From Altererythrobacter lutimaris (GTDB lineage: Bacteria > Pseudomonadota > Alphaproteobacteria > Sphingomonadales > Sphingomonadaceae), in contig NZ_JABWTA010000001.1 of the NCBI RefSeq assembly GCF_013371495.1, positions 2,640,693 through 2,704,692 on the forward strand: a DNA stretch of 64,000 nt. Direction: 5' to 3'. The translations under genes and the position numbers were made by a program. Of the stretch, positions 45,985-50,195 are shown one piece after another. The notes under the pieces are model-generated. The model did no database searches, was not told the origin of the DNA, and saw only the letters and a program-made list of their open reading frames with translations. Numbering within the stretch: the first letter of the stretch is position 1; each line of letters starts with the position of its first letter.

Positions 45985-46629
45985 TTACCAGCGTACCAGA
46001 GGCGGCACGACAAGGCGTCCGACAATCGCCATGATCACGACAGGCGCGACGTGCGAGATGCCCAGATGCGTCACGCTATCGATGCTGCAGGAAATTCCGA
46101 AAGCCGCTGTGCCAAGCGCCCCAGCCGCCAGCCCTGTGAACCAGCCGGCAGGGTTAAGCGAGACCGGCGCACCGCGACGCAGCCACAGCGTAAGCGCAGC
46201 GCCTGTTACCAGCGATGCAGCGAGCGAGGATGTGATGCAGTGCGTTGCAAACAGGCTGCCAAGGCCGACATGGCCTTCATGCGCTGCAGGGATGATGCTC
46301 ATGATCGCTGCAAGCGGAAGGACTGCGAGCATAGCGCTGGCCCATTTGGGCGCGTCGTGACGATTGCCCACACGAGGGCTCGCCATCATGATGACAGAGG
46401 ATGCGGCTGCGAGGCCTAGCACCAGCAGCAGGCCGCTTGTGACCCAGAAGAAGGGCGCCGCTTCGCCTTCGACGATGCCGTGCCAGAAACCTTCAAACAG
46501 CAGGATGCCGACGACGCTGATCGCGCCGGCAATTGCGACCAGAATGGCTCCGTCGCGCGCGCTGAAAGCTCGGACCGGTTCCAGATCTTCCGTCAGGCTG
46601 GCGATCATGTTCTCTCTAGAGGCGTTCAT
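45985..46629 (-). CDS. nrsF: NrsF-family membrane anti-sigma factor (DUF1109)
   Basis: A 214-residue protein with six hydrophobic helices after a short polar N-terminus. It carries two single cysteines, Cys131 (ATHCITSS) and Cys181 (ISCSIDS), at the positions reported as functionally important in Caulobacter NrsF. NrsF holds the sigma factor SigF inactive at the membrane until heavy-metal or oxidative stress releases it. It lies 2 nt downstream of sigF. Confidence 0.92.
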   Translation of the reverse strand: MNASRENMIASLTEDLEPVRAFSARDGAILVAIAGAISVVGILLFEGFWHGIVEGEAAPFFWVTSGLLLVLGLAAASSVIMMASPRVGNRHDAPKWASAMLAVLPLAAIMSIIPAAHEGHVGLGSLFATHCITSSLAASLVTGAALTLWLRRGAPVSLNPAGWFTGLAAGALGTAAFGISCSIDSVTHLGISHVAPVVIMAIVGRLVVPPLVRW

Positions 46630-46631
46630 TG

Positions 46632-47162
46632 TTATTCTGCTTTCTCAACGAGCGCGGACAATTTCTTCAGGCCGCGATGGATATTCACTTTGACCAGGCT
46701 TTCGCTCTGGCCGGTTCGTTCAGCCGCTTCCCTGATGGAATGGCCTTCGATCTTCACAAGCTCGATCACTTCGGCTTGTTTGTCAGGTAAATGGATGAAC
46801 AGACGTTCCAGGCTCACGCGCGCTGCGATGGCTTCTTCATCGCTTTCTTCGATCGCATCATTGTCTTCGAGAAGATCGCTTTCATGCTTGTAGACTTTGC
46901 GAAGGTGGTCGACCCAGCGATAGCGTGCAATGGCAGCAAGCCAGGGAAGAAACGGACGGGTCTTGTCCCAGGTGGACCGCTTGTTGTGAACCGCGAGCAG
47001 CACATCCTGCACCAGATCATCGAGCTGATGCGGAGGGACGCGCCGGCGGAAATACCGCTCCAGCCACAGGCCCGCTTCTGACAGCAGCACATTGTAGGCG
47101 GTTTTGTCGCCGCCTTGCGATGCTGTCATCAAACGGGCGAGGGTGGCTTCGTCAGCGATCAT
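46632..47162 (-). CDS. sigF: ECF sigma factor SigF
   Basis: A 176-residue ECF RNA polymerase sigma factor. Region 2 has HQLDDLVQDVLLAVHNKRSTWD and PWLAAIARYRWVDHLRK; region 4 has LPDKQAEVIELVKIEGHSIREAAERTG (read in parts) with its helix–turn–helix. It overlaps the doxX stop by 4 nt and is followed by nrsF, the order found in SigF systems. It should recognise the two GTAAC[CG]-N16-CGAA sites upstream of this operon and of the divergent one. Confidence 0.94.
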   Translation of the reverse strand: MIADEATLARLMTASQGGDKTAYNVLLSEAGLWLERYFRRRVPPHQLDDLVQDVLLAVHNKRSTWDKTRPFLPWLAAIARYRWVDHLRKVYKHESDLLEDNDAIEESDEEAIAARVSLERLFIHLPDKQAEVIELVKIEGHSIREAAERTGQSESLVKVNIHRGLKKLSALVEKAE

Positions 47163-47617
47163 GACTTCACCTTAGCGGCAATTGCCGCATCAAGCGAGAA
47201 CACGCCTGCTCCGCGTGACATCAGCACCAGCGCCATGGCAACCCACACCAGGTGAACACTCCACCAGGCATCGGGATAGACGAAGAACTGGATGACCAGC
47301 GTCATGATCAGAAGCGAGAGCGAGGCGAAACGGGTTGCAAGGCCAAGGACAAGCAAAATGGGGAAGAAAAACTCCGCATAGGTCGCCATTGGCGCTGCGA
47401 TATTGCTTGGCAGCGGCACGCCGGCATATTCGCTCTCGAACAGGAAGTACGTGATGTCAGAGAGCTGGAACCAGGTCCCTTCTTCTACTTTCGTTGTGTA
47501 AGAGCGCCAGAATACGCCCGCGAGGGCAACACGGGTGAAGAGCAGTGCGAGCCCTTCGAACACACGGCCCGACAGGATGCCTGTCAGCCTGCTATATAAA
47601 GAAATCACACTGCTCAT
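47159..47617 (-). CDS. DoxX-family membrane protein (bufferin/gig cluster)
   Basis: A 152-residue inner-membrane protein with four helices. DoxX family: LALLFTRVALAGVFWRSYTTK, then AEFFFPILLVLGLATRFASL and VYPDAWWSVHLVWVAMALVLM. DoxX proteins are regular members of gig/bufferin clusters (GigD in Caulobacter). Their job there is unproven; a quinone- or thiol-related redox step is a guess. It sits between bufA1 and sigF in a leftward operon. Confidence 0.9.
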   Translation of the reverse strand: MSSVISLYSRLTGILSGRVFEGLALLFTRVALAGVFWRSYTTKVEEGTWFQLSDITYFLFESEYAGVPLPSNIAAPMATYAEFFFPILLVLGLATRFASLSLLIMTLVIQFFVYPDAWWSVHLVWVAMALVLMSRGAGVFSLDAAIAAKVKS

Positions 47618-47649
47618 CTTTACGCCTCCTGCGGTTCAGACTGTTGCGA

Positions 47650-47934
47650 TCAACGCTTGATCGGTGTCAGCGAACCTTTGCCCTTGGGCGTTTCGATGCT
47701 GGTGCATGTGCCTTTCTTGACGAGCTTCCAGGCATTGCCTTGATAGTCGCGCGTCGATGTGCCTGAGCAGCTGGTGCCTGGGCCTGCGGCGCAGTCATTC
47801 TTGCCTGCCTTGGCAACGCCGTAGCATTTTTCCATGCCGCCTGATTGCGCGGCAACAGGGGTTGCGATGAGTGTGGCAGCGGCGGCGCCGGTCATTGCGA
47901 GGCCAGCGAGTGCGGCGAGTGAATTGGTCTTCAT
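47650..47934 (-). CDS. bufA1: Bufferin precursor BufA1/GigA-like (DUF2282)
   Basis: A 94-residue secreted Cys-rich protein. Signal peptide to about 30 (ATPVAAQ), then four cysteines at 37, 48, 56 and 77 in [21 protein letters not shown] and KGTCTS, the DUF2282 pattern. In this class the cysteines are post-translationally modified by the DUF692 enzyme and the product binds copper or similar metals. The start at 47934 has GGAGAG six nt upstream. First gene of the leftward operon, driven by a SigF-type promoter. Confidence 0.9.
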
Positions 47935-48014
47935 GGTTTCTCTCCAAATCAAAAGAACGAGTGGGGGTTTTCAGCATTAAGCGCCCCGACTTGTGTTTCG
48001 GAGCTGCTCGCTGG

Positions 48015-48040
48015 TTCGGCGCGGATCGGAGAAGCGTTAC
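48015..48040 (-). promoter_or_regulatory. SigF-type promoter for bufA1–doxX–sigF–nrsF
   Basis: On the minus strand GTAACG (48035–48040) is followed after exactly 16 nt by CGAA (48015–48018). The published Caulobacter SigF consensus is GTAACC-N16-CGAA, so only one base differs. It would start transcription about 70 nt before bufA1 and make sigF autoregulated. Confidence 0.8.
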
Positions 48041-48064
48041 AGGCCTATAAAACTTTTTTTGGCT

Positions 48065-48090
48065 GTAACCGGATGCTGGAAAGCAGCGAA
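48065..48090 (+). promoter_or_regulatory. SigF-type promoter for bufA2–bufB–bufC
   Basis: GTAACC (48065–48070), exactly 16 nt, then CGAA (48087–48090): a perfect match to the SigF consensus. It lies about 90 nt before the second precursor gene. Its -35 is 24 bp from that of the divergent promoter, and a T7 tract lies between them. Confidence 0.85.
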
Positions 48091-48179
48091 CCCGGCCATG
48101 TCCCCGCTGCGCTTGGACGCGAGAAAAGGAGGGGGCACCCTGATATTGACTACCCCCTTTATTCTATTGGAGAGATTTA

Positions 48180-48467
48180 ATGAGCACTCAAATCCGCAAG
48201 CCAGTTTTCGCTGCAACCGCTGCTGTATTCGCGTTGTCATCCATGGCCGCGTTTGCCGCGGAGCCGCCTGCTGGCTCCACCGGTCGCGCCATCAATAGCG
48301 ACGACACCGTCCACTGTTATGGCGTCCATAGCTGTAAGGGCCAGGCTGACTGCGCGACCACGGAAAACGCCTGCAAGGGCCAGAACGAATGCGCCGGCCA
48401 TGGCTTCAAGGCCATGAAGGCTGGTGAATGTCTGTCCGCTGGCGGCACGATCGGCGACCTCGGCTAA
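48180..48467 (+). CDS. bufA2: Second Cys-rich bufferin-like precursor
   Basis: A 95-residue secreted protein: signal peptide with cleavage near AAFA/AEPP, then six cysteines at 46, 52, 58, 65, 71 and 84, with CKGQ occurring twice (SCKGQADCATTENACKGQ). It is unlike the DUF2282 precursor across the divide but fits a metal-binding substrate of BufB. The bufA2 name is by position and cysteine pattern. The Shine–Dalgarno GGAGAG is the same as for bufA1. Confidence 0.8.
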   Translation: MSTQIRKPVFAATAAVFALSSMAAFAAEPPAGSTGRAINSDDTVHCYGVHSCKGQADCATTENACKGQNECAGHGFKAMKAGECLSAGGTIGDLG

Positions 48468-48486
48468 GGCTTGAGCTTACCCCCTC

Positions 48487-48535
48487 GCGGCCCGGCACCC
48501 ACCCAACCCCCGACCCTCAAGCGGTGTCGGGCCGC
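48487..48535 (+). other. Hairpin between bufA2 and bufB
   Basis: Arms 48487–48499 and 48523–48535 pair at 12 of 13 positions (one G:U in RNA) around a 23-nt loop. No T-run follows, so it is not a full terminator. It could protect the bufA2 message or cause partial termination, giving more precursor than enzyme. Confidence 0.55.
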
Positions 48536-48555
48536 ACCCTCAAACCCGTATCGGA

Positions 48556-49413
48556 ATGGCAGCAATGCAGACCATCGACCCTTTCTCCGGCTTCGGACTT
48601 GGCCTCAGGCGGACGCATTATGCGGACTTTCTCGAGGGCAATGTCGATGTCGACTTTGTTGAGGTAATCTCCGAAAACTATATGGTCGAAGGCGGAAAAC
48701 CGCTGCGCGTGCTGGAAGATATCCGCGCAAAGCATCCTGTGATCCTGCATGGCGTTTCCATGTCGATCGGATCAGCGCACGGGCTCGATACAGCCTATCT
48801 TCAGCGGCTTAAAGCACTCGTGGACCGGATTGAACCGCTCTGGGTCAGCGATCACCTTTGCTGGACGCGCACCAGTGCGCATAACAGCCACGATTTGCTC
48901 CCACTTCCGCTCACGCAAGAAGCGTTGCAAGCGGTGTGCGACAATATTTCCCAGGCGCAGGATACGCTGGGTCGGGCCATGCTGTTCGAGAACCCGTCAA
49001 GCTATCTCACTTTCCCCGAAGACGAGATGAGCGAATGGGAGTTCCTGAGCGCAATGGCGCGTCGGACGGGGTGCTACTTGCTGCTCGACGTCAACAACAT
49101 CTATGTGAGCGCGCAGAACCACGGCTTCAGCGCGGAAGACTATCTCAATGGATTGCCGCTTGACCGCGTTCGCCAGATTCATCTGGCTGGCCATGATCCG
49201 GCCAATGAAAGCCGAGATTTGATCATCGACACGCATGACCGCGAAGTGTGCGAGCCGGTCTGGGCGCTTTATTCCAAAGCCATGACAATGATGCCGCAAG
49301 GCGTTGCGACCATGATCGAGCGTGATGACAAGATCCCGCCACTGCCTGAACTGCTGAGCGAGCTTGAGCTAGCCCGCGATCTGGCACGTACAGCACAAGC
49401 GGTTCCGGCATGA
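48556..49413 (+). CDS. bufB: DUF692 multinuclear iron oxidase, bufferin maturase
   Basis: A 285-residue TIM-barrel enzyme of the MNIO family (DUF692), which oxidatively modifies cysteines of small precursor peptides. Metal-ligand motifs are visible in order: HGVSMSIG, WVSDHLCW, FENPSSYL, LLDVNNIYVSAQNHG, IHLAGH, DTHD and MIERDD. A second ATG three codons in (48565) is also possible. It overlaps bufC by 4 nt. It is the only DUF692 gene here although two candidate precursors flank it. Confidence 0.95.
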   Translation: MAAMQTIDPFSGFGLGLRRTHYADFLEGNVDVDFVEVISENYMVEGGKPLRVLEDIRAKHPVILHGVSMSIGSAHGLDTAYLQRLKALVDRIEPLWVSDHLCWTRTSAHNSHDLLPLPLTQEALQAVCDNISQAQDTLGRAMLFENPSSYLTFPEDEMSEWEFLSAMARRTGCYLLLDVNNIYVSAQNHGFSAEDYLNGLPLDRVRQIHLAGHDPANESRDLIIDTHDREVCEPVWALYSKAMTMMPQGVATMIERDDKIPPLPELLSELELARDLARTAQAVPA

Positions 49414-50195
49414 GCCTCGCATCCTCACAAGCTGCATTCATGGCGCAAGTCCTCGACGAAGAGGCATCACTGCCATCTGCATGGGGCAATACCCAAAGCG
49501 CAGGCATGGGGGTCTATCGCAACAATTACCGCAGCTCGGTCGTCGAAGCCTTGCGTTCAACCTACGAGCGCACAGCGCGCTGGGTCGGCAAGGATGCATT
49601 CCGTCAGGCGGCAGCGCACCATATCATTATGCATCCGCCAGCGAGCTGGACCTTGGACGCAGCTGGCCAAGGCTTTGATCTCACCTGCGCGGAACTGTTC
49701 ACAGACGATCCTGAAGTGGCGGAGCTTGCATGGCTCGAATGGACCATGCTCGACATCTTCACCATGCGCGATCAAGCGCCGCTCGATCAGGCCGGATTTG
49801 CTGCGGCGACCGCCGATTTCGCGGAAAGTGACTGGGGCACGATGCGTTTGGCATTCCTTCCCGGCACGACGCAATGCAAAGTGCGGCACGATCTTCTCGC
49901 GCTTTGGAACAAGCTGTCTTCGGACGACTTCGAACGCGTAGATGCTGCGCTGGAAGCTGCGCAATCCTGCGTCGTGTGGCGTGAAGGCGAGCGCCCGGTT
50001 TTTGCGCTGGTCCCCGTCGATGAAGGCACGGTCCTCGACGCGATGATCGAAGGCGCAAGCTATGAAGAGGCCTGCGCGATCCTCGCTCGTAAAGCCAGTT
50101 CAGATGAAGAGGTCCAGCAAGCGGCGATGCGCGCTGGCGCGATGCTCGGGCGCTGGCTCAATGATGGCCTGATCGCAGCGGTCAATCCGGACTGA
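49410..50195 (+). CDS. bufC: DUF2063 partner protein BufC
   Basis: A 261-residue protein of the DUF2063 type, the usual partner of DUF692 enzymes and thought to bring precursor and enzyme together. Seen: the N-terminal GVYRNNYRSSVVEALRSTYE segment typical of the family, WVGKDAFRQAA, and a C-terminal domain ending AGAMLGRWLNDGLI. The ATG overlaps the bufB stop (ATGA), so the two are made in equal amounts. Confidence 0.92.
   Translation: MSLASSQAAFMAQVLDEEASLPSAWGNTQSAGMGVYRNNYRSSVVEALRSTYERTARWVGKDAFRQAAAHHIIMHPPASWTLDAAGQGFDLTCAELFTDDPEVAELAWLEWTMLDIFTMRDQAPLDQAGFAAATADFAESDWGTMRLAFLPGTTQCKVRHDLLALWNKLSSDDFERVDAALEAAQSCVVWREGERPVFALVPVDEGTVLDAMIEGASYEEACAILARKASSDEEVQQAAMRAGAMLGRWLNDGLIAAVNPD

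Follow-up and report, generated by a model that had tools for sequence, protein, structure and literature searches.

Can a single maturase serve two unlike bufferin precursors, and what becomes of the enzyme when one of them is lost? The question is raised by a divergent gene cluster of Altererythrobacter lutimaris (RefSeq assembly GCF_013371495.1, contig NZ_JABWTA010000001.1), contained in a stretch of 64,000 nucleotides that was analysed as a whole and is called the window here. Two precursors, BufA1 with four cysteines and BufA2 with six, are encoded back to back beside one maturase, BufB, and its partner, BufC. From gene content and comparison with relatives, we consider it likely that one BufBC complex matures both bufferins in a SigF-controlled copper-buffering module, and that the locus represents a stage in the history of a maturase that is changing its substrate. 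The genes concerned are the following.

45985-46629, minus strand: nrsF, membrane anti-sigma factor (PF06532, 121.5 bits, over the cut-off)
46632-47162, minus strand: sigF-like gene for an extracytoplasmic function (ECF) sigma factor (Sigma70_r2 and Sigma70_r4_2 over their cut-offs; TIGR02937, 68.5 bits)
47159-47617, minus strand: doxX, membrane protein (PF07681, 57.7 bits)
47650-47934, minus strand, ATG at 47934: bufA1 (DUF2282), four-Cys bufferin precursor (PF10048, 86.7 bits)
48180-48467, plus strand: bufA2, six-Cys bufferin precursor with signal peptide (NF050166, 100.9 bits, cut-off 60)
48556-49413, plus strand: bufB, MNIO/DUF692 maturase (NF050167, 385 bits, cut-off 310)
49410-50195, plus strand: bufC, DUF2063 partner (PF09836, 64.1 bits, 261 residues)

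The left unit runs bufA1-doxX-sigF-nrsF, with doxX, sigF and nrsF overlapping or nearly touching, and the right unit runs bufA2-bufB-bufC, with a four-base overlap between bufB and bufC. A sequence-only reading had earlier described such a divergent, two-unit split of a bufferin cluster, over a span that begins just to the right of nrsF; all its parts were found in place and profiles confirmed their families. The arrangement departs from the classical gig/BufA1 operon, which groups precursor, MNIO, DUF2063 and DoxX in a single transcription unit, as the MNIO and DUF2063 genes lie on the opposite strand, behind bufA2. The same reading took the six-Cys protein for a little-described bufferin class, which the NF050166 match rules out: the protein is BufA2, corresponding to the Buf2 or Buf_6/12Cys family in the available text of Antoine et al. 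(2025; PMC12452194), and has six intact cysteines, two Cys-Lys sites and two CKGQ motifs. BufA1 combines the PF10048 domain with four cysteines and a signal peptide (the latter two judged by eye), and the NCBIfam profile search gave no match to it. BufB aligns with PDB 3bww (E 6e-43), and its base, Asp257, is one of 29 polar positions conserved in at least 97% of 169 BufB. BufC resembles PME-type 1 partners (PF09836 over cut-off, about 250-260 residues) but stays under the cut-off of the HvfC model NF050145 (24.5 bits, cut-off 142), and sequence comparison gave no close solved structure for it. DoxX likewise stays under the HvfX model NF050144 (55.6 bits, cut-off 80), and NrsF does not reach the NCBIfam NrsF equivalog (28.9 vs 300).

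The first line of evidence is that the enzyme has no visible colleague. The window genome (2.95 Mb, 33 contigs, 99.95% complete) contains a single PF05114 (MNIO) gene, and no second PF05114 match was found in 13 of the 15 genomes of the genus with the split layout. A separate DUF692 gene elsewhere in related genomes had been named as one finding that would speak against a shared maturase. Its absence from these 13 genomes strengthens the proposal of one maturase for two distinct substrates, as do the conserved layout and those relatives whose corresponding enzyme has BufA1 as its only neighbouring precursor. The layout also recurs: among the best 80 of 567 confirmed MNIO loci, a selection that favours near kin, 25 show the split with one BufB, so that the arrangement is not one genome's chance. 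Within the same 80, bufA1 is divergent from bufB-bufC with bufA2 missing in 19, BufA2 units have no BufA1 in the fetched stretch in 26, two BufB occur in the fetched stretch in nine, and BufA1 is on the same strand in one. BufA1 and BufA2 were told apart with stricter profiles; an iterated profile of our own had mixed both. Taking named and family loci together, two BufB point apart in four stretches (L075, L086, L098, L115), those of L098 being in units turned towards one another instead of back to back, and two BufB stand in tandem in six. In a further layout, represented by eight distinct BufB, doxX-bufA1 is divergent from sigF-nrsF-bufA2-bufB-bufC. A split locus is also present in the gammaproteobacterium Luteimonas kalidii (L068), whose BufB is 65% identical to that of the window and falls inside the split clade; it was probably acquired by horizontal transfer.

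The two units might instead be ordinary neighbours without a functional link, the second maturase having been missed by the assembly or belonging to a family other than the MNIOs. The 33 contigs of the window assembly leave some room for this, but its completeness, the existence of single-contig split or bufA2-less relatives with one MNIO (G150, G159, G195; G151, G186, G192, G204, G208) and the conservation of promoter pairs across loci make it very improbable.

Which kind of enzyme the sole BufB is can be judged from its kinship. In 48 of 48 loci, the BufB of split and bufA2-less clusters is closer to enzymes of BufA2 units than to those of BufA1 units, and BufC behaves likewise. Median identities of split loci to the BufA2-unit and BufA1-unit proteins are 61% vs 40% for BufB and 32% vs 20% for BufC (the comparison was repeated without row L069), and the best identities of the window BufB are 66.4% vs 44.3%. 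In two IQ-TREE trees, a branch with support of 100 sets the BufA1-unit enzymes apart, so the split enzymes are not inside the BufA1-unit group.

A second line of evidence comes from natural losses. MNIO genes are present in 69 of 114 genomes of the genus, and the 74 matches divide into 40 loci that lack bufA2 and have bufA1 divergent, 15 split loci, 15 with bufA1 on the same strand, three partial loci and one with no precursor near. (Six genus loci were first classed as 'none', five of which were reassigned by coordinates before the topology tests and residue counts given below.) The bufA2-less layout, with BufB as the only MNIO, occurs in 39 of the 114 genomes, and a whole-genome search found no BufA2 over the cut-off in any of these 39; hence, only BufA1-type substrates are visible for the maturase there. 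Sixteen BufA2 places under the cut-off were left out of the counts; most coincide with DUF2282 matches and so are mostly BufA1 cross-matches. A hidden precursor in the place of bufA2 was also sought, and none of the Cys-containing open reading frames in the gap of 21 bufA2-less loci was bufferin-like by eye. In the BufB tree, the bufA2-less rows form one clade of 20 or, in a larger tree, two groups of 36 and three, the latter adjoining two split rows; the tree does not tell apart a single loss of bufA2, two losses or one regain.

These losses bear on the view that BufA2 alone is matured and that BufA1 is a relic, or works unmodified, after the loss of its own BufB-BufC. The position of bufA1 outside the bufB operon and the lack of its classical partners agree with that view, and the accessible part of Antoine et al. 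(2025; PMC12452194) leaves open whether some precursors stay unmodified. However, BufA1 has kept its four-Cys frame intact in 36 of 37 split and 20 of 20 bufA2-less loci. Median ratios of nonsynonymous to synonymous substitution rates (dN/dS) are 0.097 for BufB and 0.087 for BufA1 in bufA2-less loci, so that both are under purifying selection where bufA2 is gone; in the split set, dN/dS is 0.118 for BufA2 and 0.106 for BufA1, and both precursors are likewise under selection. Given also that the sole, intact BufB of the 39 genomes has no known substrate left other than BufA1 proteins, an idle or unmodified BufA1 seems unlikely.

Further DUF2282 genes accompany the losses: at least one is found in 37 of the 39 bufA2-less genomes, and a second one in five of the 13 split genomes with a sole MNIO. 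Among 37 unlinked DUF2282 genes of the genus (L240-L274, L171, L172), 35 encode a loose lipobox match, mostly AAAC, and 28 have a SigF-type motif upstream. The proteins consist of a signal segment, the lipobox, a linker rich in Ala and acidic residues, and then the BufA1 core, and look like membrane-anchored BufA1 that would be matured in trans. Lipoprotein forms are mentioned for Buf2 (about 16%) in the available text of Antoine et al. (PMC12452194), in which no statement on such forms of Buf1 was found. The window genome has one DUF2282 gene and hence none of the unlinked kind. Inner cysteines are lost in three DUF2282 proteins (L183, L184, L185), leaving two Cys in L184 and L185, whose source genomes (G051, G128) have a DUF2282 match listed and no PF05114 match. 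One genome (G242) has bufA1 and bufA2 matches and no MNIO match, but a frame there stays open for 3510 residues, so that a masked stretch may hide the enzyme.

According to Gadgil et al. (PMC12668002), the Asp that follows the catalytic base contacts the substrate Lys in Cys-Lys (BufA2) enzymes, while the same site is Phe in Lys-Cys enzymes and shows no clear preference in DUF2282 enzymes. The numbering there is that of FonB; with the site placed by the ERD motif and the alignment to 3bww, Asp257 of the window BufB is the base and Asp258 the predicted substrate-contact residue. Asp is found at 258 in 36 of 38 BufA2-unit, 3/3 double, 8/8 sigF-beside-bufA2 and 45 of 48 split BufB, compared with one of 26 BufA1-unit and 17 of 39 bufA2-less BufB; its replacements in the last set are 16 Glu, four Gly and two Ala (Fisher's p = 2e-7, with related rows). 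Among the 103 positions that are conserved in at least 85% of the BufA2-unit set and of the split set alike, three fall strongly in bufA2-less loci, namely 49 (Pro to Gln, 0.93), 44 (Val to Ile, 0.73) and 258 (0.50), the next position falling by 0.10. Position 258 had been named beforehand from PMC12668002, whereas 44 and 49 were picked out after the fact. On the tree, at least seven of eight changes at 258 are inside the bufA2-less clade, a proportion that undercounts changes outside it because the tree lacks the non-Asp split rows L133 and L068. The catalytic base is kept in 48/48 split and 39/39 bufA2-less BufB, and all 29 conserved polar residues in 46/48 and 37/39. We read this as a sign that the presence of BufA2 may hold the enzyme to Cys-Lys reading, and that the hold would loosen when BufA1, whose inner sites are DCAA and SCAG, is all that remains.

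The precursors themselves show a related pattern: in the sigF-beside-bufA2 type, the residue after the DC cysteine is K in both BufA1 and BufA2 in seven of eight loci, and in split loci it is A or S in BufA1 in 34 of 34, and in BufA2 in 24 of these. This match is confounded by two clades and was not used as support.

The residue data also address the converse possibility, namely that BufBC has already switched, with BufA1 as its true substrate and BufA2 on the way out. Of the genus's 56 full-length loci of the split type, which comprise 15 split, 40 bufA2-less and one without precursor, 40 have lost BufA2, and the window BufB is sister to the bufA2-less clade or near it. Against this stand the retention of Asp258 in nearly all split loci, the window included, the low dN/dS of split BufA2 and the six cysteines and two Cys-Lys sites that the window BufA2 retains; a completed switch is accordingly quite improbable for this locus.

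The consensus of SigF promoters in Caulobacter is GTAACC-N16-CGAA, as given by Kohler et al. (2012; PMC3511200), and the region between the two units contains two such motifs.

48015-48040, minus strand: SigF-type promoter of the left unit, GTAACG-N16-CGAA, one position off the consensus
48065-48090, plus strand: SigF-type promoter of the right unit, GTAACC-N16-CGAA, exact consensus

The whole window genome holds 18 matches to GTAAC[CG]-N16-CGAA, which corresponds to about 0.0007 per strand for a stretch of 245 bases. Among loci with distinct BufB, a search from the bufA1 core to bufB with the looser pattern GTAACN-N16-CGAN gave a motif on both strands in 36 of 37 split and 19 of 20 bufA2-less clusters. 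When the strict pattern was applied to a shorter interval, both strands were occupied in 49 of 67 junctions (duplicates included), and in the genus set a SigF-type motif stands on both strands in 47 of 49. The fetched loci, 1.59 Mb in all, contain 218 strict motifs vs eight reversed ones. The window NrsF has cysteines at 131 and 181, which are also the residue numbers of the sensor cysteines in Caulobacter NrsF (PMC3511200), and each is kept in 101 of 102 aligned NrsF. The Caulobacter SigF regulon is described as copper-induced and a sigF mutant as copper-sensitive (PMC8224329). Of the window genome's 18 strict motifs, 16 were inspected in context and several look intragenic. Others (on contig C10; L277, L278, L283, L287, L288, L290) stand 19-78 bases before genes for VTT-domain/pyridine nucleotide oxidoreductase, thioredoxin, disulphide reductase, redoxin, DUF1223 and DM13 proteins, and a thiol-redox arm of the SigF regulon is possible.

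The sequence-only reading did not note that the units share SigF-type promoters, that relatives have lost bufA2 or that the specificity residue drifts. A working scheme can be proposed. By analogy with Caulobacter, metal or thiol stress acting on the periplasmic cysteines of NrsF would free SigF, which would then fire both divergent promoters together; the left transcript would yield BufA1, DoxX, SigF and NrsF, and the right one BufA2, BufB and BufC. The BufBC complex, of the BufA2-unit kind, would act on both precursors ahead of Sec export, oxidising their inner cysteines (probably to thiooxazoles), and the mature peptides would chelate copper in the periplasm. Two complete units may have come to lie back to back, after which the BufA1 side would have lost its own BufB-BufC; loss of bufA2 in many Erythrobacter relatives would have left a BufA2-type maturase serving BufA1 only. 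We lean slightly towards a fuller history. In it, BufA1, deprived of its own enzymes, was adopted as a foreign substrate by a BufBC of the BufA2 type; many species then dropped the native substrate, BufA2, and changes at Asp258, which reads the Lys, and at positions 44 and 49 followed. Where BufA2 is gone, the one remaining BufBC would also serve the unlinked, SigF-controlled and probably lipid-anchored BufA1, and the window would be frozen at the two-substrate stage.

Several points weigh against this scheme. BufA1 could be unmodified in the window genome. Approximately unbiased (AU) tests do not reject a grouping of BufA1-unit with split enzymes (p 0.738 for BufB, 0.716 for BufB plus BufC) or with bufA2-less enzymes (p 0.25 and 0.264), so the attachment point of the BufA1-unit branch is not fixed, and descent from a BufA2-unit enzyme is argued from identity rather than from a rooted tree. 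Asp258 persists in 17 of the 39 bufA2-less loci and is gone from three of the 48 split loci that keep bufA2, again among related rows. Joint control of both units by SigF is suggested by motif matches, which are not proof of SigF use.

One more element lies within the right unit.

48487-48535, plus strand: RNA hairpin between bufA2 and bufB (-32.2 kcal/mol, z -2.82; 2/200 shuffles as good)

A cruder mononucleotide shuffle gave z values of at most -2 for 34 of 37 split loci, the window itself scoring -1.3 over another stretch. The hairpin may ensure that more precursor than enzyme is made, although this is a guess.

Whether several bufferin precursors can depend on one MNIO-PME pair is raised as an open question by Antoine et al. 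(2025; PMC12452194). The available text of that paper gives no lineage, layout, promoter or residue evidence on the point. Here, the situation is conserved and has been altered by natural losses: the window pairs two precursors with a single enzyme, and 39 genomes of the genus lack one of the precursors, which makes the question directly testable. No description of the shared layout, the bufA2 loss or the contact-residue drift was found in the titles and abstract openings of open-licence papers. The closest parallel is Caulobacter vibrioides/crescentus, in which, from the accessible part of PMC3511200, the SigF regulon and the gig-type BufA1 operon CC3254-CC3257 place two bufferin units under one SigF. 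Both systems have a DUF2282 precursor, MNIO, DUF2063, DoxX, SigF, NrsF with Cys131 and Cys181, and the promoter GTAACC-N16-CGAA. However, Caulobacter has two MNIO-DUF2063 pairs, one per precursor, and the window a single pair for back-to-back BufA1 and BufA2. The chemistry of Caulobacter Buf2 modification is called not identified in the available text of PMC12452194.

The right unit agrees with the Buf2/BufA2 clusters of PMC12452194, as far as that text is available, in its six-Cys precursor, MNIO, DUF2063 and gene order bufABC. Sigma factor and NrsF genes are stated there to occur in Buf1 clusters and to be lacking from Buf2 clusters. In contrast, the promoter region of the window's Buf2 unit is also that of a Buf1-sigF-nrsF unit. 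In seven fetched loci (L079, L080, L082, L083, L088, L148, L150; L082 and L148 being on the same contig), moreover, genes for SigF and/or NrsF lie upstream of a BufA2 unit, and the fetched stretch contains no BufA1. BufA2 units would thus be brought into the SigF regulon, contrary to the printed statement. A maturase able to process two unlike precursors, with natural variants at three positions, would be a useful starting point for the engineering of peptides. With the captophorin MNIOs of PMC12668002, in the part accessible, the window BufB shares the base Asp followed by Asp of Cys-Lys enzymes. That study probed the site in FonB; in the present loci, the site drifts after the natural loss of the Cys-Lys substrate, which ties a published specificity residue to the disappearance of what it reads.

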